A model generated the notes under the pieces. The model ran no database searches. It was not told the DNA's origin and was given only the letters and a program-made list of their open reading frames with translations. 64,000 nucleotides of DNA from Vaginimicrobium propionicum (GTDB lineage: Bacteria; Actinomycetota; Actinomycetes; Propionibacteriales; Propionibacteriaceae). Below, piece after piece: positions 18,033 through 31,494 of the stretch. A program made the translations under genes and the position numbers. The stretch lies in assembly GCF_900155645.1 (NCBI RefSeq), contig NZ_LT706985.1, positions 1,412,051-1,476,050 of the forward strand. Direction: 5' to 3'. The stretch's first letter is position 1; every line of letters begins with the position of its first letter.

Positions 18033-21000
18033 TTATCGTGAAATCTTGCCAACAACTTTCTTGCCAACCCGCTTTACGGTTTCCCGGCGCCTGGAGCCAA
18101 TCGGCAGTAATGCTCCGCTGAACTTTCCGAGCATGCCGCTAGTGGCGGCTGTCTTCAATTTTTTCCACATCTTGTCGCCACTGCTACCGACTCTATCTGC
18201 CTTTACCAGGCTCTCCTCGTAGAATGTGGTGCACCGAGCGTATTTCCACCAGTACCGGGCGAAATCGCATGTTGGGTCGTTCCACGGTTTCAATCCGCCT
18301 GCATAATGAATGATTCGCGGGTTGCTGCGGGTTGCCAGGTATTCGTCGAATAAATCGGCGGGAGCGAAGCGAAGTGCCGCCTTAATGCGGCCACCATCCA
18401 TCAATACGTTCCAATGCGGGTCAAGGTAAAGAACCTCGTGCTCAAGACGCATATTCAACACATCTTGGTCGTTGTAAAGCAGGGGCTGTTCAGCAAATGT
18501 CAGCCAATCTTTTACTGAATAAAGCTCGCGTAGCCGCTTGTTATTTAATAGTAAAACGCCAGCCTGGAAGTAGTTATATGGGTCATCCATCCCTAGGGTG
18601 TCCTTGGCATAGTCCACGCGGTTGCCGCCCTTGATGTTGAGGTTGCCGAGGAAATCGACGTCGTGCATAGCTCCGATAGCTTTACCCCCCAAATCTGTAG
18701 CGTAGAGCTTGGCGACATCGTCGAGGATAACCATGTCAGAATCCAAGTAGAGCACCTTGTCGTAGCAGGCTAAAACGTCCTGAATTAGGAACCGATAATA
18801 GGTTTCAACAGAGATATGCGCATTAGCCCGGAGCTTATATCGGCGAATCAACGACGACACGTTGAATAATCTGACGGAGATATTCGGGTAATCGGCAACA
18901 CTTTCTTTTATTTGCGCAAACCGCTCGTCGCAAAGATCTGCTGAAAAGATCACCACGTCGTAGAAAGTGGTGGGCGTGGAGTTCTTGGCTAGCGACAGCA
19001 CAGAAACATTCAGTTGCGGAGCATAGTTATCATCACCGGCAAAGACCACCGGGATTGCATCACACTCAAAGGCTCGATTCAGGCTGTAATGAATCTTTTC
19101 TGGATGCTCAAAGTGTACGACTTGAGCATTCTTGACTCGAATGTTGGTGTTGCGTATGGCATGTTCCATGTAAACGTTGAATAACCGCTCAGCAAGGTGA
19201 CCGACTGTGCGTAACGCTTCTTTCGAGTAGTGGGAGTAGTCACGTTTTTCTTCAAATCGCTCAAGCAACGGGAATAACCATTGACAGTAGTCGAAGAAGA
19301 TGTCCTTGCGCATAACGTACATATTGCAGAAACTGATCGCTGAGCCAGACAACACCTTTTCGAGGGCTGCCGAGTAGCGAGGTTGCAGCTCACGCACGAC
19401 CTCTTCTAATATCTCGAGATCTTCATCCAGAAGATGTTCGGCTTTGTGCCAATGTTCCCGAATAGACGACAACGGGCTGGGGAATGCCGAGACATCGTTG
19501 CGTGGCGAGCAAAGCACATCGCAATCCTGTAGTGCCTCGGCTAGTTTCTCGTTTGTTAGTCCGAACTTTCGAATAGCGTCGTCATCTACATAGTCGGCAA
19601 TAACCTCGCCCCAACCGTTTTCCTTGTATTGATTCCCGGAAAGATTAAAATATCGGCGGTAATGGCAGAACCCGTAATAATCGGCTTCTTCATTCTTCCA
19701 AGCCCAATACTGGACGGTCATCTCGCAGTAACGCGCGTTACGATCCGAGATGTTCTCACCCTCGTCATCGTGACGAAAACCGAGGAAACGCTCTTTGGCG
19801 GCTGCCGCGTTGACCTGAACAGGAACGTAAGCAGAGGCCGGTGGGAACTGCGCTTTTTTGTGGCTGGCAACGTACATGCGCACTTTTGGGCCACCTGGGG
19901 TGATCGGCTCGGCTGGTCGTTGAAGTTTTTCACGTTGTGAAATATCGTTCAAGTGGTTCAGAGCCCCTTGCTTGTACTCTGCACCTTTTTGTGAAAGATT
20001 ATCTTCATATTTTTCCGCTAATCTAAAGGTTATATTAGCAAAATCTAAAAAAATAACCTTTTCATCCTTTGCCGCCCACGCTTCATAAGCCTTATCACGC
20101 GCGACGCGGTATAGAGCCTCGCTCAAATATATGGAATCCAGTCTCCCATCAATTCGATCCACTAATTCTTCCAGATCTTCGACGGGGCTGAATCTAACGT
20201 CATTCAGAAAAGACATTTGAATACGTTTCACATAACTTTCTGCGCATTCTCTAATCTCGCCATCTCCAAATCTTTCAGCATATTTCCTGATTTCGTCACA
20301 TGCCGTCTGAATACCAGCAGCTCGGTTGTTAACGTTCCGTAGATTAAGTCGTCGCGAAGAACTGCCTCTTGCCATGTGGTATATATAATGCGGGCCCGTG
20401 CAGGAAGTGGATGAGCTTCTGGCTTTAGCACGTAAAACAAAACTCTGATAAACGTCTTCTGCGTAGTCCAGACGCTTAGGAGTCATCTCGGCAAAAGCTT
20501 TTCGAATCAAATCACCGCAGTACGCTTGCAGGACTACGCTCCAATTCGGAGACGGGCCAAAAGATTCCAGAGAAATCAGCTTCAACGGACCTAAAGTATC
20601 GACATCTGGTGTAAAGATATTCGCGCCCGCCTTGTAACCATCTATGACTTCTTTGGGTAGAGCACCATCTTCCGCAACGTCAACCTTTAGTTGAAGCAGA
20701 TCTGAAGGCTTTGATACTAACTCTTGTTTTAAGTCGCCTAGGCTGCCTTTAGCATATTCGTCATCTCCATCCAACAATAGAACCCAATCGCCCGTACTCT
20801 CCAGCACTCCGGTCTTTCTGGAAAGGTACATTCCGCGATTTTCTTCGTGCGAAATGACTTTAATGCGCGCGTCACGCTGCTCATATTCTTTCAGAATGTT
20901 TGCGGTAGCATCTGTAGAGCAATCGTTGACAACAATCACCTCGATGTCCTTGAAATCCTGATTAAGAACACTATCCAGCGCTTGTCCGATGTACGCCTCT

Positions 21001-21038
21001 TGGTTGAAAGCAATCACCACAACAGAAAAGAAGGGCAT
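18033..21038 (-). CDS. Three-domain glycosyltransferase: GT2 + DUF4422 + GT8
   Basis: About 1001 residues. Residues 1-330 form a GT2 domain (SVVVIAFNQEAYIGQALDSV, VNDCSTDAT, LLLDGDDEY). Residues about 385-640 are DUF4422 (MYVASHKKAQFP, DYYGFCHYRRYFN). Residues about 680-950 are GT8 (VVFAGDDNYAPQL, DKVLYLDSDMVILDD with DxD, HYAGGLKPW). One polypeptide could therefore add up to three sugars to a cell-surface glycan. ATG 21038 is preferred because AAAGG precedes it by 7 bases; ATG 21053 is possible. G+C falls in this part of the window. Acceptor and donors are unknown. Confidence 0.88.
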   Translation of the reverse strand: MPFFSVVVIAFNQEAYIGQALDSVLNQDFKDIEVIVVNDCSTDATANILKEYEQRDARIKVISHEENRGMYLSRKTGVLESTGDWVLLLDGDDEYAKGSLGDLKQELVSKPSDLLQLKVDVAEDGALPKEVIDGYKAGANIFTPDVDTLGPLKLISLESFGPSPNWSVVLQAYCGDLIRKAFAEMTPKRLDYAEDVYQSFVLRAKARSSSTSCTGPHYIYHMARGSSSRRLNLRNVNNRAAGIQTACDEIRKYAERFGDGEIRECAESYVKRIQMSFLNDVRFSPVEDLEELVDRIDGRLDSIYLSEALYRVARDKAYEAWAAKDEKVIFLDFANITFRLAEKYEDNLSQKGAEYKQGALNHLNDISQREKLQRPAEPITPGGPKVRMYVASHKKAQFPPASAYVPVQVNAAAAKERFLGFRHDDEGENISDRNARYCEMTVQYWAWKNEEADYYGFCHYRRYFNLSGNQYKENGWGEVIADYVDDDAIRKFGLTNEKLAEALQDCDVLCSPRNDVSAFPSPLSSIREHWHKAEHLLDEDLEILEEVVRELQPRYSAALEKVLSGSAISFCNMYVMRKDIFFDYCQWLFPLLERFEEKRDYSHYSKEALRTVGHLAERLFNVYMEHAIRNTNIRVKNAQVVHFEHPEKIHYSLNRAFECDAIPVVFAGDDNYAPQLNVSVLSLAKNSTPTTFYDVVIFSADLCDERFAQIKESVADYPNISVRLFNVSSLIRRYKLRANAHISVETYYRFLIQDVLACYDKVLYLDSDMVILDDVAKLYATDLGGKAIGAMHDVDFLGNLNIKGGNRVDYAKDTLGMDDPYNYFQAGVLLLNNKRLRELYSVKDWLTFAEQPLLYNDQDVLNMRLEHEVLYLDPHWNVLMDGGRIKAALRFAPADLFDEYLATRSNPRIIHYAGGLKPWNDPTCDFARYWWKYARCTTFYEESLVKADRVGSSGDKMWKKLKTAATSGMLGKFSGALLPIGSRRRETVKRVGKKVVGKISR

Positions 21039-21374
21039 AGTTTGACCTTTCATACGCGACCACGGCTGGCCTGGAACGAGTCACTAGGATTCTAGTGGAA
21101 CAACAAAAACGTCTGGCTACCTCACTAAAGAATTCACGTTTTTACTCAAACATCATCGGTTAGGCCGCCTGACCAGCTTTAGTAACCTCTTACTGCGTGG
21201 CCTACATGGCCGAGCTAGCCCCGGCAAAACCATCATTAATACCATAAAGCACAATCTAAACAGCTCAATTCATCATGAATCGCTTATAGTGCAGCGTTAA
21301 ATATCAACACCTGACAGATTCCTGGGAAGAATACAAGACGCATGAATACCACCCTCACCTAGACAATAGTGATG
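21039..21374. other. Intergenic region in the glycan island
   Basis: This gap between two minus-strand glycan genes shows no open frame with coding character and no clear hairpin. It presumably contains the promoter of the three-domain glycosyltransferase. Confidence 0.5.
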
Positions 21375-22496
21375 TTAAGAGGTCTTGGGCTCTAAGTAAA
21401 ACTGTTCTAGCCAGCTCACGGTTTGAGAAATATCAAAGCCATGATCTTTCACATATTCGACTCCGCAAGAACGCGAAGACAGGTCAGGCAGTGATTTCGC
21501 GGCCTCTTGGAGTGTATCAACCCATATTTCTTTGCCGGCCGAGATGTCAATGAAATGTACGTCTTTGCCGCAATCGACAAACGAAGGAACTCCGGGAGAT
21601 AGGAAGCAGGATAGCCCATTTGCCTGAGCCTCTATCGCAGCGATACACAAACCTTCACTAAACGACGTGAGGACAAAAAAATCAGAAGCACTCAACACAT
21701 CCGCAACGTCGCTGCGTACTCCTAAGAAAATGACTTTATCAGCTACGCCGAGATGGCTAGTTTTAGCCTTTAAATCGTCTGCTAGCTCACCGCGCCCAAC
21801 TAGCAATAGCCGCGAATCCGGATTTCGTTCCACGAGATCTGCAAATACATCGAGAAGAAAATCGTGATTTTTTTGTAAGGTGAGACGTGCGACATCTACG
21901 TAAACACGGGAATCGGCAGATATATTCAATTCTTCGCGAATCCTTGTGCGAGCTGCATTCGAAAAGGCAAAAGCCTTCGTATCTATTCCGTTAGGTAGCA
22001 CCATTGACCTCGAGCTTTGGGCAATTTTGTAACCATACCTATCGCGCAAAGCCTCAAAAGACGCTCCCATAAAATAATCTGCGATATAGCGTGTGGGATA
22101 TGAAACGATTTTGAATGCTATCTCAGCAGGACTCAGCGGATAATTCTGCGAATGGCTATGGGCAACGGTGTATTTTCCAGCCTGCTCAGCAGCTTTGAGA
22201 TAAAAAACAGCGATAGATCCCAAGTGGCCGTGGACAATAGATATTTCAGGATGCGCAGTGAAAAATTTTTTGCACCGTAAATAATATCTAGGAAGTTTTA
22301 TTGGAGAGGGCATTCCTATGCGAAAGATTCTGCCACCAAGAGCCTCAATCTCATCATCGTAGTCACCGCGCTGAGCACTATGAACCAGGAAATCGAATTG
22401 CACTTTAGTGCGATCAATAGCGCGAAAAACATTCATGATGAGAGTTTCTGCGCCGCCGCGATCCATTTTTTTAATCACATGACATATACGAATCAT
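21375..22496 (-). CDS. GT4 family glycosyltransferase
   Basis: A 373-residue GT-B retaining glycosyltransferase of the capsular type. The N-terminus ICHVIKKMDRGGAETLIMN is typical of EpsF/CpsG-like enzymes. The C-terminal donor domain has SSDFFVLTSFSEGLCIAAIEAQANG (written in parts: SDFFVLTSFSEGL and IEAQANG), where the E-x7-E motif lies. It probably adds a sugar during polymer-unit assembly. The flippase gene ends 77 bases upstream in the same direction. Confidence 0.85.
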   Translation of the reverse strand: MIRICHVIKKMDRGGAETLIMNVFRAIDRTKVQFDFLVHSAQRGDYDDEIEALGGRIFRIGMPSPIKLPRYYLRCKKFFTAHPEISIVHGHLGSIAVFYLKAAEQAGKYTVAHSHSQNYPLSPAEIAFKIVSYPTRYIADYFMGASFEALRDRYGYKIAQSSRSMVLPNGIDTKAFAFSNAARTRIREELNISADSRVYVDVARLTLQKNHDFLLDVFADLVERNPDSRLLLVGRGELADDLKAKTSHLGVADKVIFLGVRSDVADVLSASDFFVLTSFSEGLCIAAIEAQANGLSCFLSPGVPSFVDCGKDVHFIDISAGKEIWVDTLQEAAKSLPDLSSRSCGVEYVKDHGFDISQTVSWLEQFYLEPKTS

Positions 22497-23947: not shown

Positions 23948-25741
23948 TCAGTTGCCCTGAGCAGAGGTTTCGTAATCAGCAAGCAACTCATCGAGCTTCT
24001 TAGTGGCATGCGAATAGTAGATATACAGCCACTCGCCGACATTGTCTCCTTCGGATTCTTTAGCAAGCGCCCAAACGTACCAGCACCATCCGGCGAAGAC
24101 CACATGTGCCCAAAAATGACGACGCTCAACAGACGTCGGCGGCCGATCAAAATAGTACACGAGAGCTTTATCAGCTAACTCATCGTCAAGAGGAACAGTA
24201 GCGACAACAAACGTGCCAAAATCTGCGGCAATATCTGCCATGCCGGCGTATTCCCAGTCAATCAAATCAATATCTCCTTGGGGAGATACAAGAAAGTTCA
24301 AATCGAAAAAATCAACGTGACTTGGGACGACAGGGAAATCTTCAGCATCTGCATAGCGCTTCAAACGTAAGACTTTTTCACGTAGCTCTGCATATCCAGG
24401 GACGTCGATTGGGCCGGCTTGTTTAAGAATCTCTTCATAACGCAAACCATCATCTATAAAGTCAAAATGCCGGGTAAGAATTCTGCCGCTTTGGTGTAAC
24501 TTTCGGGACATATGCATCGCGCTACGCAATTCGTCAGCATTTTTCACATCAAGACTGCGGCAGTCCGGGATAAAACGAGAAATCTTCCATCCCTGAACTG
24601 GATTCGAGAAAAGAAATGTTGAGTCGAGATTCAAATCTGTAGCTAAATGCAAAGCCTCATTTTCCGCTTGGCGGTCAATAATTTTATCTGTGCCCACACC
24701 CGGGTGACGATAAACATACTCTTTATCACCAACGCTAAAATGACAAGACAGATTAGTAATGCCTTGCTTCAACGGATAGATATCTTTAATGTCATCGACG
24801 CTGCATCCAAGCGTCGACGTGATATTGGAAAAAATTTCCGAATCCACATTCTCCATAAAATACGGATCAAAGGAGCGAAGCTCGTCTAGGGAGTCAAATT
24901 CATTAATTACGCCTTCAGGATATTTACGAATAACCATTTTTAAGTTATCGATGTGATCGATATAAATCTGTTCCCACAGTTTTGGAGCGGTTTCGGAAAG
25001 ATAGTAAACTTTTTCAAGTATTTCTACAAAATTGCGTGAAAATTCACGATCAAAATACACGTGGCCCAGCATAACCCACGAGTCATGTCCGCCAATATTA
25101 ACTTCAGTTATGCGTCCGCTTTCATCTGCCGTTAGACACCACTCATCAGTTTCGCCTTCGACGTATTTGGCTGAGTAATAAGCCTGATAGACATGTGATT
25201 CGAAAGGATTCTCGGTGAAATAGTTATCAGAAGAACACACATAGGTGTTAGCTAGTTTGTCTTTAACTAACCAGAGAGAACCGTTATTGTTGCGGGTTAC
25301 GTAATCTGAGTTAACGACAATCGTGACCCCATATTTTTCAGCAAGATAAAAGAAATACTCTTTCCGGTATCCGACAACAACGATGATGTCTGTTATCCCA
25401 GCCTCAAGGAGCTGTTCAATTTGGCGCTCAATCAGCACTTCGCCATGTACCTTAAGGGTTCCTTTAGGACGCTCATAAGAAATCGGTGCAAAACGAGAAG
25501 AAAGCCCTGCAGCCATAATCACCGCATTATCGACCGCGTACGGCGCAAGCGCTTTCTTGCCAACATCTGTTATCCGGCTATCGGCCAGGTAACCCCATGA
25601 TTCCAATTCTCGAATTGCACAGGCAACTCTGTCTGGTGACAAACCAGTTGATGCTTGAACTTCGCGCTGGGTCAGCACCTTTGGACAGCGATAGAAAGCG
25701 TAAAGAACGTCAAACTGTTCTTGAGTCGATAACAAAACCAT
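23948..25741 (-). CDS. Fused winged helix + LicC cytidylyltransferase + LicA choline kinase
   Basis: A 597-residue fusion. Residues 1-65 look like a winged helix (LTQREVQASTGLSPDRVACA). Residues about 70-300 form a nucleotidyltransferase (VIMAAGLSSRFAPISYERPK, then VCSSDNYF). Residues about 320-590 are a choline-kinase/APH fold with the catalytic HVDFFDLNFL and metal-binding LIDWEYAG. It would phosphorylate choline and then form CDP-choline for LicD enzymes. ATG 25741 has a weak GGTGAG upstream. Two licD genes lie 4-5 kb away in the same cluster. Choline specificity is inferred from family and context; ethanolamine is possible. Confidence 0.85.
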   Translation of the reverse strand: MVLLSTQEQFDVLYAFYRCPKVLTQREVQASTGLSPDRVACAIRELESWGYLADSRITDVGKKALAPYAVDNAVIMAAGLSSRFAPISYERPKGTLKVHGEVLIERQIEQLLEAGITDIIVVVGYRKEYFFYLAEKYGVTIVVNSDYVTRNNNGSLWLVKDKLANTYVCSSDNYFTENPFESHVYQAYYSAKYVEGETDEWCLTADESGRITEVNIGGHDSWVMLGHVYFDREFSRNFVEILEKVYYLSETAPKLWEQIYIDHIDNLKMVIRKYPEGVINEFDSLDELRSFDPYFMENVDSEIFSNITSTLGCSVDDIKDIYPLKQGITNLSCHFSVGDKEYVYRHPGVGTDKIIDRQAENEALHLATDLNLDSTFLFSNPVQGWKISRFIPDCRSLDVKNADELRSAMHMSRKLHQSGRILTRHFDFIDDGLRYEEILKQAGPIDVPGYAELREKVLRLKRYADAEDFPVVPSHVDFFDLNFLVSPQGDIDLIDWEYAGMADIAADFGTFVVATVPLDDELADKALVYYFDRPPTSVERRHFWAHVVFAGWCWYVWALAKESEGDNVGEWLYIYYSHATKKLDELLADYETSAQGN

Positions 25742-26071
25742 GGCTCACCCATTCACAAATTGCTTATTCGGATTCACGATCGAACATGAATTGCATGAAA
25801 CTTACTATGAACCGCGACGTCTTACTAGAACATATCTGCATATGTTTCATATTTTCTCATTTGTTGCAGCCCACTTCACCCTATACCCCGTTGTCAATCA
25901 TATCTTTTGGCTAATATCAGCGATATTTGTTATCAAACTCTGGAGGCTGAGTGACGCGTGAGAGAATGAGTACGCCTTAACTTTTTCACAGCGCATTGGG
26001 AGAAAAACTCGTCATTGGGGAGAATAGAACACAAGACAAATACTTGGAAAGAAGAATCCTGGCAGCTCATA
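25742..26071. other. Divergent promoter region between licC-licA fusion and GT4 gene
   Basis: This A+T-rich gap separates two divergent glycan genes and must carry both promoters. I could not assign -35/-10 boxes with confidence. No hairpin or small gene stands out. Confidence 0.4.
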
Positions 26072-27247
26072 ATGATGAAAAACACTCCGATGCGCATAGG
26101 CTTCATTGTTAATAACTATCCTCCTCACCTTGGGGGAGTTGAGCGGCACGTGCATGACCTTGCCACCGAATTGGCTGAGCGCAAACACGAGATTTCAGTA
26201 ATCACACTTGCCGATAAAAAAGCCAGCAACCCCTCGCCGCAACACCAACAATTACTTTCAGATTCTTCAGCCACAAAATCTGCAATTCGAGTTCTGCGAT
26301 TTCCTCGGTGGCTTAACGTGGGTGACGTATTTTCTCTTCCCACTCCGGTAGCTCTAGGCAGGATAATTAGAACAGTAAAGCATTCGCATTTCGACGTAAT
26401 TTCAGTGCACACCCGCTTTTTTCCGCTGACGTGGCTGGGAGTATTGCTGGGAAAACGTCTCAACATTCCCGTACTACTTACAGAACATGGATCAGATTTC
26501 GTAATTAATGATTCACGTTTTGTCACTCTCGTTTCGAAAGCAGTGGACTATACTTTCGGACGGTTCGCACTACGTCATGCTACGCATAGACTCGGGGTCT
26601 CCCCAGCAGTCGTCAAATTCGTGAGAAGGCTGGCGGGAGTAGAAACGAAGGTATTTTTTAACGCTGTTGCACCGCCAGATTCACGAATAAAACACCACAA
26701 ACCCACAAAACTAGTGTTTGTTGGTCGGCTTGTGCCAGGAAAAGGCTGGAAATCTTTTATCGATATCGCCGTGACACTAAAAAAAGATATCCCAAACTTA
26801 TCTGCCGCAATCATTGGTGGCGGCCCTGATGAGCAAAAAGTTCGCGCAGCATCCCCAAGCTGGATTAACGTCACGGGCCAAATTCCACATTCAGCCGCAG
26901 TGAAAGAATTGGCTGGATCTACGCTCGTTAATCCGACAATTCTTTCAGAAGGATTCCAAACAACTGTTGTAGAAGCGGTGGTAAATGGAGGTCGCGTGGT
27001 GGGATACCCTGAGCCTGCGTCTTCGGCGCTGCAAGAAGCCGGAGCACCGGTAACAATTGTAGAACGCGGCAACGAAGATGAATTGCTCAAAGCAACGCGA
27101 GAAACATTACTGCACCCTAAACCGACACTCTCATTGAAAGCAGCAGAAAAGTGGACGTGGCCGTGGCGTGCAGAAGAATTCGAAAAAATCTGCCAAAAGC
27201 TAATTGCCGACTTTCCGCCCAAACCGACGGACATGAGACGCCGGTAG
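26072..27247 (+). CDS. GT4 family glycosyltransferase
   Basis: About 391 residues, GT-B fold. The N-terminus IGFIVNNYPPHLGGVERHVHDLA is typical (quoted core: NNYPPHLGGVERHV). Later come LTEHGSDF, LVFVGRLVPGKGWKSFID and the donor site LVNPTILSEGFQTTVVEAV, where the E-x7-E motif is conserved. It is the only plus-strand gene in this glycan cluster, so it has its own promoter. Start choice: ATG 26072, 26075 or 26090; an in-frame TTG at 26015 is less likely. The sugar transferred is unknown. Confidence 0.82.
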   Translation: MMKNTPMRIGFIVNNYPPHLGGVERHVHDLATELAERKHEISVITLADKKASNPSPQHQQLLSDSSATKSAIRVLRFPRWLNVGDVFSLPTPVALGRIIRTVKHSHFDVISVHTRFFPLTWLGVLLGKRLNIPVLLTEHGSDFVINDSRFVTLVSKAVDYTFGRFALRHATHRLGVSPAVVKFVRRLAGVETKVFFNAVAPPDSRIKHHKPTKLVFVGRLVPGKGWKSFIDIAVTLKKDIPNLSAAIIGGGPDEQKVRAASPSWINVTGQIPHSAAVKELAGSTLVNPTILSEGFQTTVVEAVVNGGRVVGYPEPASSALQEAGAPVTIVERGNEDELLKATRETLLHPKPTLSLKAAEKWTWPWRAEEFEKICQKLIADFPPKPTDMRRR

Positions 27248-27375: not shown

Positions 27376-29208
27376 TTACGTAATAGCGCGTAGCACTTTA
27401 AGGAATCGGGCATTGTCTCGACTGGAGCGAACCGCCAGGCGTATGTATTGCTTGCCATCAAAACCTTGCTTTCCAGAAAGGTCTTTTATGATGAGGTCAT
27501 TTTCCAGGCATGCGATGGTAAGTTCTTTGGCGGTGAACGGGGGCAGTACTTCGGCGGTCAGAAAGTTGGCTTGCGAAGGCATCACTCGCAAGAACGGCAA
27601 TTGGCTTAGTCCTGCTGCAAATTCCGCCCTTGCTGTCTTTATTTTCTCCAAGGCTTGAGCGTAATCTTTCGCGTATTTCCCTTCAATTTGTAGGTAGAAC
27701 TCGGCGAAAGAATTTATGTTCCAGATAGCAACATCCTTCTTAAAACGGGCGATCGCCGCAGTATCCGAACTAGCCAAAATCCCCAAACGCAGTCCGGCGA
27801 CACCATAGCTCTTAGAAATTGATTTCACGATGAACAGGTGCGGATGCGAATCCAAAATTTCCTGATTTAACAAAGAATTATCTTGCCCGTCAGCAAAATC
27901 GATGAAACTTTCGTCAAGCACCAAAGTTATCTCGCGCTCAGTTGCCCAATCCGCCAATCTAAGAGCTTCCTCCTTAGGGATGAAGTTACCCGAAGGGTTG
28001 TCTGGGTTAATCACTACGAGGGCTTTTACGCGCTCGCCACCGTCCGTCTTACCTTGTTCACTGCGACCAAAAAACTCTATTAAATCATCTGCGGTGTAGG
28101 AGAAATTAGGATTACCTGCCTGAAAAATAATCGGTTTTTGCAGGCAGCGATTGGGGTATTCCTCAAAAGTCGGTCTGACTACACCATAAGGCATTGGAAG
28201 TTCAGCCATCAGCGACTTAATCAACTCTGCTGCCCCGTTTCCTACCACAACCTGATCAGGACGCAGACCAAAATTCTTGGCCGCCAGCAAGGAATTAACC
28301 GTCATTCCTGAAGGGTAGTCAGCAAGCAAGGTATCAAAATTAGCTCGCATCTCGTCTTTCATCTTCTGGGGAGGAAAGTAGGGATTTACCAAGTAGCAAT
28401 AGTCAAGCATCTTAGGATAACGCCAATATCCGCCATAGCGTGATTCAAATAGTTTCTTGCGCTGGGCGCTATCAGGATGGAATATCGAGGATGCGATGTC
28501 TAGGTCTTGCACATCGTCAATCTCGTACCACTTTTGCCCATCTAGGCGTTTGGCTTTTATCTCGGGATCGTCAAGCAGGGCAATAACCCGCAAAACCTGT
28601 TCATAATATTCGTTACGCCCTAAAGCTTGCGTGTATGCATCTAAAAATGGAACATAGTGCGTGCGGGAGAACTCTTTAGAAAACTTATAGATATTGACAG
28701 TTTTATAATAGGAATCAATATCCTGGTAAATAAACTTTTTTCCGGGAACAAAAGCAGAAATGCTGTCATCTTCATAAAGCTGAACGACGGTTCCATCCAT
28801 CCAGGACTCATATTTATCCACGAGCGCTAAAGTTGGCCGAGAATCATCTAGGAGGCAGTCAAGCACGCTATCTTCAAAAATCAAATCAGACTCCAGCAAC
28901 AGCGTATCGTCTTCTAGGAGTTTTTCTTTAGCCAGCCACAGAGAATAAATGTTATTCGTCTGATCATAAATCGGGTTATCAATGAACTCTATCGGGGTAT
29001 GAATATCTAATGTTTCGATATAGTCGACTAATTTTTGTCCCTCGTAGCCGGTAACAACAACTACTTTTGAAAGAGCTTTAGCATCCAGCTGGTGAAGCAT
29101 GCGTTCAATCAAAGTCACTCCATTGACTTTCACCATGCACTTAGTGTTATTAGCAGTCAGCTCTTTCAGGCGTGAGCCCATCCCCGCTGCCAAAATAATT
29201 GCCTGCAC
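27376..29208 (-). CDS. Bifunctional nucleotidyltransferase / CobD-HisC-like PLP enzyme
   Basis: A 610-residue fusion. Residues 1-245 are a LicC-like nucleotidyltransferase (IILAAGMGSRLKELT, LLLESDLIFED). Residues about 265-610 are a fold-type I PLP enzyme with VINPDNPSGNFI, DESFIDF, the PLP lysine in SISKSYG and AGLRLGIL, closest in pattern to histidinol-phosphate aminotransferase and threonine-phosphate decarboxylase (CobD). It may make and CDP-activate a phospho-amino-alcohol for a LicD enzyme. The known PntC fusions activate 2-aminoethylphosphonate, but no phosphonate genes are present here. GTG start at 29208; GGGAGG lies 10 bases upstream. Confidence 0.8.
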   Translation of the reverse strand: MQAIILAAGMGSRLKELTANNTKCMVKVNGVTLIERMLHQLDAKALSKVVVVTGYEGQKLVDYIETLDIHTPIEFIDNPIYDQTNNIYSLWLAKEKLLEDDTLLLESDLIFEDSVLDCLLDDSRPTLALVDKYESWMDGTVVQLYEDDSISAFVPGKKFIYQDIDSYYKTVNIYKFSKEFSRTHYVPFLDAYTQALGRNEYYEQVLRVIALLDDPEIKAKRLDGQKWYEIDDVQDLDIASSIFHPDSAQRKKLFESRYGGYWRYPKMLDYCYLVNPYFPPQKMKDEMRANFDTLLADYPSGMTVNSLLAAKNFGLRPDQVVVGNGAAELIKSLMAELPMPYGVVRPTFEEYPNRCLQKPIIFQAGNPNFSYTADDLIEFFGRSEQGKTDGGERVKALVVINPDNPSGNFIPKEEALRLADWATEREITLVLDESFIDFADGQDNSLLNQEILDSHPHLFIVKSISKSYGVAGLRLGILASSDTAAIARFKKDVAIWNINSFAEFYLQIEGKYAKDYAQALEKIKTARAEFAAGLSQLPFLRVMPSQANFLTAEVLPPFTAKELTIACLENDLIIKDLSGKQGFDGKQYIRLAVRSSRDNARFLKVLRAIT

Positions 29209-29314
29209 GAAACTAACCCTCCCTGTCGAAATATTTTATAAGGTTTGCGATACTCCAACGTTACTTCATGTCATTAGTAATTTAGCCTGAACTATTGGGT
29301 GGGTAACTCAAGAC

Positions 29315-30172
29315 TTAGAACTTAGAATCCATTACATTAACGCCATCGCCAAAATCAAGAATCTCAGGGACGTGGTTACGACGCTCGGATACGGGCGGTA
29401 AGGTCATATAATCACCGTAGAGAGCGCGCAAATATACGTCCACGTTCGCCGGAGCTTGCACACGCAAGCCAGCAAAATCTATCTCTCTAGTTGGGAACAA
29501 TGTGCTCTCATCCATCGGAAGCTGCCCAAACCCAGGCGCGCAATACCATGAATGTGATGCGACACGCGGTTTTGCGGTCTTACAAAACCATTTGAAGATA
29601 AATCTTTGTGGAACTAGTTTCAACAAAAAATGTATAACATTAAATACCCCTTGCAGAATCCAACGAAAACGAATCTGGGAAGGAACGTGAGGGTGGGCGA
29701 AACCCTTTAAATAAGATAGCTTTTGCCAAAATTCTGTGCCCCGTAATTGCAATTTTCCCCGGAACCAGTTCTGATCTACCTGGAAATATGGAAATATATC
29801 CAAGAAGATTCCTTGATAGGCACCAGCTTCTACAGCGTTATCGTCCTCAAAGCGCGTACCGTCAATATAAACTTTTGTCCAGAGCGCTGTGAAATTCGGG
29901 GTATTTTCGCAAGAATGTAGTGTATATCCCGAAGGTAAATGCTTTGGCGCTAGTTCTAGGAATCTAACGTAATCTTCAAACGGCATTCCAATATCAATAT
30001 CATCATCCCAGGGAATAAACCCCCCGTGACGCACCGCACCTAAACAAGTGCCGCTGTCGATAAAATAAACAAGATTATGCTTTTCACATAACTGCGAAAC
30101 TACCCGCAGTAGTTCAATTTCGCGTTCCTGTAATTTTTCCAAAACCCCAGGGGGATACTCAGAAGTTTGCAT
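29315..30172 (-). CDS. LicD family phosphotransferase
   Basis: A 285-residue LicD/FKTN-type enzyme. The family signature is clear: FIDSGTCLGAVRHGGFIPWD, followed directly by DDIDIGM with the metal-binding DxD. LicD proteins move phosphocholine (or a related group) from a CDP donor to a sugar in a surface glycan. A second licD lies 18 bases upstream in the same direction, so two acceptors or two head groups are possible. The ATG at 30172 has only a weak GAG before it. Confidence 0.88.
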   Translation of the reverse strand: MQTSEYPPGVLEKLQEREIELLRVVSQLCEKHNLVYFIDSGTCLGAVRHGGFIPWDDDIDIGMPFEDYVRFLELAPKHLPSGYTLHSCENTPNFTALWTKVYIDGTRFEDDNAVEAGAYQGIFLDIFPYFQVDQNWFRGKLQLRGTEFWQKLSYLKGFAHPHVPSQIRFRWILQGVFNVIHFLLKLVPQRFIFKWFCKTAKPRVASHSWYCAPGFGQLPMDESTLFPTREIDFAGLRVQAPANVDVYLRALYGDYMTLPPVSERRNHVPEILDFGDGVNVMDSKF

Positions 30173-30189
30173 GATTACTCGATTTAGTC

Positions 30190-31008
30190 TTAAACGTATT
30201 TTGCCTTTGTTGCATGTGGGATCCTCTGTTCCACCGGAGGGAGTTCACGCCAGTTACCGAAACGGCCAGTTAGCACTTTCTCCGGATTTGCAGGAATGGG
30301 GAACATATGGTCTTCAAAAGAGGCATAAGACACCGGGAATATGTCGTTTTTATTAATTGGTTTCCGACATTCATCTCCAAGTATTTGGAAAAATACTTCT
30401 GAGCCACAAGGATTATTAATTTTCTGCGCCAAAGAATCCATCTTTGAAGCAATAGCAAATCTGTTAAGCACCCTCTTCAATGGCGCTAACGACTTCTTTA
30501 ATAAGACACGGAAACGAGATTCTCCAGCGTCAGGATTCATATTTGCAACTGAGATTAAAAACTCTAACGGCTTAAGGAGCAAAAATATTATTTTCACCTT
30601 CCAGGTTAGAGCCTTAGCGCTTTCATAAGGAAAGATGTCTACCCACAGCCCATGCGGTATTGCATTATCGTAATAATCAAGAAACGCAACAGTTCTCGAA
30701 TCAACCAATTTAAACCAGCAATTAGGAAACGTCTTATCACGCGGCGTTATTAAAGTGTGCGCAAAAGCTTTCGGATTCGATTTCCACAAATCATAAAGTT
30801 TTTCATAATCTTCTCGAGGCATACAGACATCGATATCATCATCCCACGGGATGAATCCGCCGTGCCTCATGGCACCTAAAAGTGTGCCGTAACTAAGCAC
30901 GTATCGCAAGCCATGTTCAGTACATAACTTGTCGAATTCCTTTAGAATATTGAGCTCTATCTTTTTTGCTTCACTAGCGCTTATGTACTCCGTATCATCT
31001 TCAGCCAT
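30190..31008 (-). CDS. LicD family phosphotransferase
   Basis: About 272 residues and the first gene of the LicD pair. The core is LSYGTLLGAMRHGGFIPWDD then DIDVCM, with the DxD metal site. The C-terminal region diverges strongly from the neighbouring LicD protein, so acceptor specificities probably differ. The start ATG 31008 is set by AAGGAG 8 bases upstream (plus-strand 31017-31022); a GTG at 31017 overlaps that site and is unlikely. It should use CDP-choline from the LicC-LicA fusion or a product of the second nucleotidyltransferase fusion. Confidence 0.88.
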   Translation of the reverse strand: MAEDDTEYISASEAKKIELNILKEFDKLCTEHGLRYVLSYGTLLGAMRHGGFIPWDDDIDVCMPREDYEKLYDLWKSNPKAFAHTLITPRDKTFPNCWFKLVDSRTVAFLDYYDNAIPHGLWVDIFPYESAKALTWKVKIIFLLLKPLEFLISVANMNPDAGESRFRVLLKKSLAPLKRVLNRFAIASKMDSLAQKINNPCGSEVFFQILGDECRKPINKNDIFPVSYASFEDHMFPIPANPEKVLTGRFGNWRELPPVEQRIPHATKAKYV

Positions 31009-31494
31009 GGGATGCACTCCTTAAACTTTGGAAGAGTTGCACGTGTGTGGGTGCGCTCACCTGTATCGGCTAATTCTAGCAGCGTTTCAACCCACCAAGA
31101 TATCTATCCTTGCTCAGTAAACTAACTAATAAATATATGCTCGCCCGTCAATTGTGCCTAGCCTATTTAATAAGATACATGGATTAGATGTAAAATGGTG
31201 AGTGTTTCTATTTAGAAAATTCAGAAATACTCCCGACATATCTTGATGGCTTTATCGGTTTCTTGTGCAAATATTTACCGCATATTAGTTGAATCAAGCG
31301 CATATAAAAATCTCAACTATTGCTAGTCGAAAGAGATTGACCACATATCGCGAAAATTTATCCAACCCAGAGCGGCTAGAGACAATCCTGTCACCGGACT
31401 TGTGCAATGTGGCCTACATAGACCGATGACTCCCGTGACCTCAACGCGCCTTGGAAGCCATTCCCAGGGTCACCGCTTTGGTCATGCTTCAGTG
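31009..31494. other. A+T-rich intergenic region at the edge of the glycan island
   Basis: Nearly 490 bases without a convincing gene. The left half is A+T rich and lies directly upstream of the licD pair, so it probably contains the promoter of that minus-strand transcript. I see no tRNA, transposase fragment or strong hairpin. Confidence 0.5.

Follow-up and report, generated by a model that had tools for sequence, protein, structure and literature searches.

A candidate CDP-ethanolamine-forming fusion of a cytidylyltransferase and a CobD-fold PLP domain in a surface-glycan locus of Vaginimicrobium propionicum

Main finding

We analyzed a stretch of 64,000 nucleotides from the genome of V. 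propionicum (the window), in which a single gene joins a LicC/PntC-type cytidylyltransferase domain to a pyridoxal phosphate (PLP) domain next to two licD genes. As judged from sequence and gene context, the fusion protein is probably a bifunctional enzyme that would form CDP-ethanolamine, starting from O-phospho-L-serine, for LicD-mediated transfer to a surface glycan. In the proposed mechanism, the PLP domain would convert O-phospho-L-serine to phosphoethanolamine and CO2, the cytidylyltransferase domain would convert phosphoethanolamine and CTP to CDP-ethanolamine and PPi, and one or both of the neighboring LicD proteins would use CDP-ethanolamine to give the phosphoethanolamine-glycan and CMP. 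We infer all three steps from family membership and context, and this applies to the choice of serine phosphate over threonine phosphate or a keto-phosphate, of decarboxylation over transamination, of CDP-ethanolamine as the product and of a glycan as the acceptor. For each half of the protein the family is known, as is the principle of nucleotidyl activation ahead of LicD transfer. No paper describing the fusion or the unfused operon discussed below was found in the literature lying mostly outside subscription journals; the only relevant papers among the results for a LicC-CobD fusion, for phosphoserine decarboxylase in glycan pathways and for LicD with CDP-ethanolamine were Rice 2019 and the Mf1 paper.

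The fusion gene and its surface-glycan locus

The features of the fusion gene and of the surrounding locus are as follows.

27376..29208, minus strand: cytidylyltransferase - PLP decarboxylase-like fusion gene, 610 aa (ORF, Pfam, NCBIfam)
28474..29208, minus strand: N-terminal LicC/PntC-type cytidylyltransferase domain, about residues 1-245
27379..28440, minus strand: C-terminal PLP domain, CobD-fold, SMUL_1544-like clade, residues 257-610
29217..29223, minus strand: Shine-Dalgarno-like GGGAGGG, 8 bases 5' of the GTG start of the fusion
29315..30172, minus strand: upstream LicD family phosphotransferase, 285 aa, with a gap of 106 bp to the fusion (Pfam, 1.8e-35)
30190..31017, minus strand: second upstream LicD family phosphotransferase, 275 aa, with a gap of 17 bp to the other licD gene (Pfam, 9.2e-43)
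26015..27247, plus strand: glycosyltransferase between the two activation genes
23948..25741, minus strand: LicC-type NTP transferase plus choline/ethanolamine kinase-like protein, 597 aa
22573..23883, minus strand: membrane protein, 436 aa, no Pfam or NCBIfam match
21375..22496, minus strand: glycosyltransferase of group 1, likewise in the surface-glycan locus (Pfam)
18033..21053, minus strand: GT2 - DUF4422 - GT8 three-domain glycosyltransferase, 1006 aa

The open reading frame of the fusion begins with a GTG codon at 29208. The initial annotation had described a LicC-like domain fused to a PLP domain with the motifs DESFIDF and SISKSYG, beside licD genes, and this description was borne out: the ORF matches the Pfam families NTP_transf_3 (residues 3-122, 2.3e-10) and Aminotran_1_2 (class I/II; residues 313-593, 6e-29), the two motifs occupy residues 432-438 and 463-469, and both neighbors exceed the PF04991 cut-off of 22.6 bits with 123.5 and 147.4 bits. 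They are the only LicD genes in the 2.01-Mb genome, which is a complete sequence (99.95% complete). The architecture is not a chance product, since the arrangement recurs in 76 full-length fusions from several phyla, and an AlphaFold2 model built with 42 fusion sequences as input was confident (mean pLDDT 89.7, pTM 0.83).

The membrane protein of 436 aa, inspected by eye, is probably a flippase. The 597-aa protein, whose N-terminal stretch resembles a winged-helix region, probably carries out salvage to CDP-choline or CDP-ethanolamine within a single protein. The presence of two activation enzymes alongside two LicD proteins would be consistent with a pair of different decorations; as a counter-point to the proposed mechanism, the LicC-kinase protein could by itself supply the LicD proteins. 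A LicD-family enzyme, Mf1, uses both CDP-choline and CDP-ethanolamine (PMC11982090).

The cytidylyltransferase half

The cytidylyltransferase half was compared with solved proteins by sequence only, as the structure-search list consists of matches to the PLP half. The closest solved chains are those of PntC from Treponema denticola (Tde-PntC; 6pd1, 1.8e-14; aligned to fusion residues 2-254 only) and LicC from Streptococcus pneumoniae (1jyk, 2.3e-14), at about equal distance. The GxGxR, K, D and E-x-D metal/CTP motifs of the LicC/PntC cytidylyltransferases are present, and the residues G11, R13, K23, E106, D108, E229 and D231 are kept in all 76 full-length fusions.

In Tde-PntC, Glu104 and Glu196 adjoin the amine of 2-aminoethylphosphonate (AEP), and LicC has an Asp there (Rice et al., PMC6697681). 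In the pairwise alignments E106 of the fusion is aligned with E104 of Tde-PntC and with the Asp of LicC; the LicC-type Asp is thus absent from this amine-contact position, which is a Glu in 76 of the 76 fusions. This one aligned position suggests a substrate with a small primary amine, for instance phosphoethanolamine, which is similar in size to AEP, rather than phosphocholine; the counterpart of Glu196 is uncertain. LicC has the role proposed here for the fusion, the CTP activation of a phospho-amino-alcohol for LicD, but it is a stand-alone, phosphocholine-specific enzyme, with a 2700-fold preference over phosphoethanolamine as cited in PMC6697681.

The likeness to Tde-PntC (6pd1/6pd2), an AEP cytidylyltransferase - AEP transaminase, raises the question of whether the fusion could be a PntC variant that makes and activates AEP. 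Both proteins have an N-terminal LicC-like cytidylyltransferase followed by a PLP enzyme, and thus the same two-part logic; PntC and LicC are equally close relatives of the cytidylyltransferase half, and PEP mutase is found above the TIGR02320 cut-off in 5 of 25 fusion genomes. However, the transaminase of PntC belongs to class V and works with PEP mutase and Ppd, whereas the PLP half of the fusion has the class I/II CobD fold, and the remaining 20 of the 25 genomes have no PEP mutase above the cut-off. In V. propionicum itself, a search of the genome for pepM, named as a check in the initial annotation, gave no match to PF13714 (the control matched in 11 of 14) and none to TIGR02320, which favors a reading other than PntC. 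The known route of phosphonate synthesis is therefore absent, which excludes PntC for this organism; the AEP reading is already refuted for this genome unless C-P bonds arise by an unknown route, and we consider it extremely improbable.

A PEP mutase motif screen of 80 loci gave three ORFs. Two of them were scanned and proved to be genuine PEP mutases, each joined to two nucleotidyltransferase domains of its own, which argues against a PntC role for the fusion beside them. PEP mutase lies in the same locus as the fusion in at least two of the five positive genomes, so phosphonate and the fusion can coexist, and the fusion is not thereby a PntC.

The PLP half

The PLP half had been labeled "CobD/HisC-like" in the initial annotation. 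The CobD fold was upheld, but the domain is closer to SMUL_1544 of Sulfurospirillum multivorans than to either CobD or HisC. In NCBIfam, the best match of the fusion is CobD (TIGR01140, 166.9 bits) and the second is HisC (TIGR01141, 137 bits), both below the curated cut-offs of 290.55 and 276.55 bits, respectively. By sequence, the PLP half has its closest solved relative in 6oux, entitled 'Structure of SMUL_1544, a decarboxylase from Sulfurospirillum multivorans', with an identity of about 29-32%. In the structure search, CobD and SMUL_1544 share the top rank at Z 37.5-38.2 (about 38 for CobD, 37.5 for SMUL_1544), and the highest-scoring HisC entries reach Z about 34-36, except for 3ftb, a named histidinol-phosphate aminotransferase, at 37.5.

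In two trees, calculated without the Cj1436 and Cj1437 sequences, the fusions, their unfused relatives, Streptomyces-like proteins and SMUL_1544 form one group with 98-99% support, separate from CobD, HisC and the CobBC of V. propionicum. A topology in which CobD was forced closer than SMUL_1544 was rejected (AU p 0.0012). Moreover, among 107 near-invariant fusion positions, 19 are shared with SMUL_1544 only and 7 with CobD only, and the former sit in conserved motifs such as DFCYL, YPS, DESF, KS.SK and WNIN. Owing to the long end branches, the evidence for this grouping is good but not final. The 'IR/VR' motif near the C-terminus, with an Arg in CobD and SMUL_1544, has Lys575 in the fusions, so that the acidic group is perhaps bound somewhat differently.

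SMUL_1544 has been assigned the role of serine-phosphate decarboxylase in norcobamide synthesis, and later work reportedly demonstrated this role. Its function was proposed as the making of ethanolamine phosphate for norcobamide (PMC4585668); it is a stand-alone protein in a cobamide operon with no cytidylyltransferase, which the fusion has. CobD (1lc5) and CobBC share the fold and the catalytic lysine with the PLP half, but they form a separate clade and supply aminopropanol phosphate for B12. The PLP half could accordingly be read as decarboxylating threonine phosphate, with CDP-1-amino-2-propanol as the product, as true CobD carries out this decarboxylation, is structurally as close as SMUL_1544 and gives the best NCBIfam match. 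We assign this only a small probability: a closer relationship to CobD fails the AU test, the residues shared only with SMUL_1544 fall in conserved motifs, and a separate CobBC already serves cobamide synthesis. HisC and cobamide roles for the fusion were rejected, because dedicated HisC and CobBC genes lie elsewhere in the genome.

The residues noted in the PLP half are the Schiff-base lysine K466, together with D432, N404, R474 and R590. In two loci (L065 and L066) residue 466 is a Gln or Glu, and their PLP halves are probably inactive, unless a sequencing error is present. One may then propose that the cytidylyltransferase mainly serves imported choline or ethanolamine phosphate, with an unrelated role for the PLP domain. 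The LicC-kinase fusion in the same locus would suit this, as would the loss of the lysine in the two loci, where the cytidylyltransferase perhaps works alone. With Lys466 kept in 74 of the 76 full-length fusions, and with the same pair found as adjacent separate genes, which argues for a shared pathway, we give this explanation a slim chance.

In Streptomyces-like genomes (L013 and L107-L112), this PLP clade is represented by stand-alone proteins, some of which have a long tail rich in Pro, Ala and Met. No cytidylyltransferase was seen in the short flanks of the stand-alone genes of L107-L112.

Other sources of phosphoethanolamine in the genome

No phosphatidylserine decarboxylase was found in the V. 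propionicum genome, which makes lipid turnover by the usual route an unlikely source of phosphoethanolamine; nor was a further de novo route to this compound seen there. Phosphoethanolamine decorations usually have membrane phosphatidylethanolamine as their source.

A precedent for the proposed decarboxylation in a surface-glycan pathway is Cj1436, a different PLP enzyme, which converts L-serine phosphate to ethanolamine phosphate for the Campylobacter jejuni capsule (PMC11800397). Like the proposed PLP half, Cj1436 and Cj1437, compared here by description only, are PLP enzymes that feed ethanolamine phosphate or serinol phosphate to a surface polysaccharide; unlike it, they are stand-alone enzymes with no fused cytidylyltransferase, and their product is amide-linked to glucuronic acid via Cj1438.

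Unfused operons and adjacent dehydrogenase genes

The two activities were also found as separate genes, in operons with the order cytidylyltransferase, PLP enzyme, CDP-alcohol phosphotransferase.

L012, 808-3598: unfused operon
L099, 629-3224: unfused operon
L115, 682-3260: unfused operon

These operons come from three actinobacterial genera, and their PLP enzyme is SMUL_1544-like. They look like a possible Kennedy-type route to phosphatidylethanolamine, and no match to phosphatidylserine decarboxylase was found in the L012 genome. Additionally, L117 has a related fusion with a LicD-domain gene downstream of it. The association of the same two activities with different transferases supports a CDP-amino-alcohol as the shared product. 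The initial annotation had proposed a single protein that produces a phospho-amino-alcohol and then converts it to a CDP derivative for LicD; the SMUL_1544 grouping and the unfused cytidylyltransferase-PLP-CDP-alcohol phosphotransferase operons both support this, and it is the reading with the strongest support.

In 29 of 61 loci, the fusion is directly adjoined, on the same strand, by an octopine-dehydrogenase-like gene (19 loci) or an OCD/mu-crystallin-like gene (10 loci), and the two types are never both adjacent in one locus. Two examples of such neighbors are given below.

L025, 11809-12888: dehydrogenase-type neighbor
L014, 11851-12819: dehydrogenase-type neighbor

Some members of both the octopine dehydrogenase and the OCD family reduce imines formed from amines and 2-oxo acids, and N-(2-hydroxyethyl)alanine phosphate is a residue of Proteus O-antigens. 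The presence of these genes suggests a further N-modification in such loci, and our guess is that the adjacent enzymes would convert phosphoethanolamine, or its CDP form, to an N-carboxyalkyl derivative. In V. propionicum itself, no OCD gene was found in a search whose control worked; PF02317 (octopine dehydrogenase) also gave no match, but its control was silent too, so that this absence is not firm.

The same neighbors bear on a reading of the PLP half as an aminotransferase acting on DHAP or another keto-phosphate, with the cytidylyltransferase making CDP-serinol or a similar CDP-amino-alcohol for LicD. An amino-acid-forming dehydrogenase, adjoining about half of the fusions, would suit a transaminase; HisC transaminases lie within the same fold family, and Cj1437 transaminates DHAP to (S)-serinol phosphate in the C. 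jejuni capsule pathway (PMC11800397). We nevertheless regard this reading as unlikely, though not negligible, as the PLP domain groups with SMUL_1544 and not with HisC, the top structural matches are CobD and SMUL_1544, and neither dehydrogenase family was detected in the genome studied here, with the reservation on PF02317 given above.

Distribution of the fusion

At least 529 matches to the fusion architecture were found among GTDB species genomes. The best 80 of these are mainly from Clostridia, with others from Actinomycetaceae, Coriobacteria, Akkermansia, Bacteroidales and spirochaetes, and the nearest relative among the matches listed is that of Varibaculum vaginae (86%). Within the family to which the window belongs, matches were found in 3 of 117 genomes, one of them to the PLP half only; this sparse occurrence fits horizontal spread with surface-glycan loci. 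A gene of the LicD, CDP-glycerol-transferase or YidC-sulfatase type is present in 30 of the 47 loci whose flanks extend for 4 kb or more in both directions.

Several loci have a distinctive organization. In L051, L055 and L073, the fusion is surrounded by tandem arrays of ~870-aa proteins, and downstream lies a protein that combines PEP mutase with two different nucleotidyltransferase domains; the representative of this protein cluster, from L048, has YidC-like and sulfatase domains. In L022, L038, L072 and L082, the fusion is followed by amidohydrolase and LicC-kinase proteins in a compact two-route locus, and in L022, L038 and L072 a separate LicC-type gene is also present (with a MarR-like helix in L072).

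Significance

Taken more broadly, the data may reflect an undescribed de novo CDP-ethanolamine pathway from phosphoserine in several phyla, in which the fused form would serve LicD-dependent glycan decoration, the unfused form would serve Kennedy-type synthesis of phosphatidylethanolamine, and about half of the fusion loci would add an N-carboxyalkylation by octopine dehydrogenase or OCD enzymes; we put this forward tentatively, as a possibility.

Host choline is regarded as necessary for phosphocholine on bacterial surfaces, and zwitterionic surface glycans interact with the immune system. The fusion is carried by hundreds of bacteria, gut and animal-associated. If the proposed function is correct, it would give surface phosphoethanolamine without the import of choline or ethanolamine, and would make zwitterionic surface glycans possible in organisms without phosphatidylserine decarboxylase. 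It would also explain hundreds of genes without an assigned function and allow a simple one-pot assay, and the unfused operons hint at Kennedy-type lipid synthesis de novo in bacteria.
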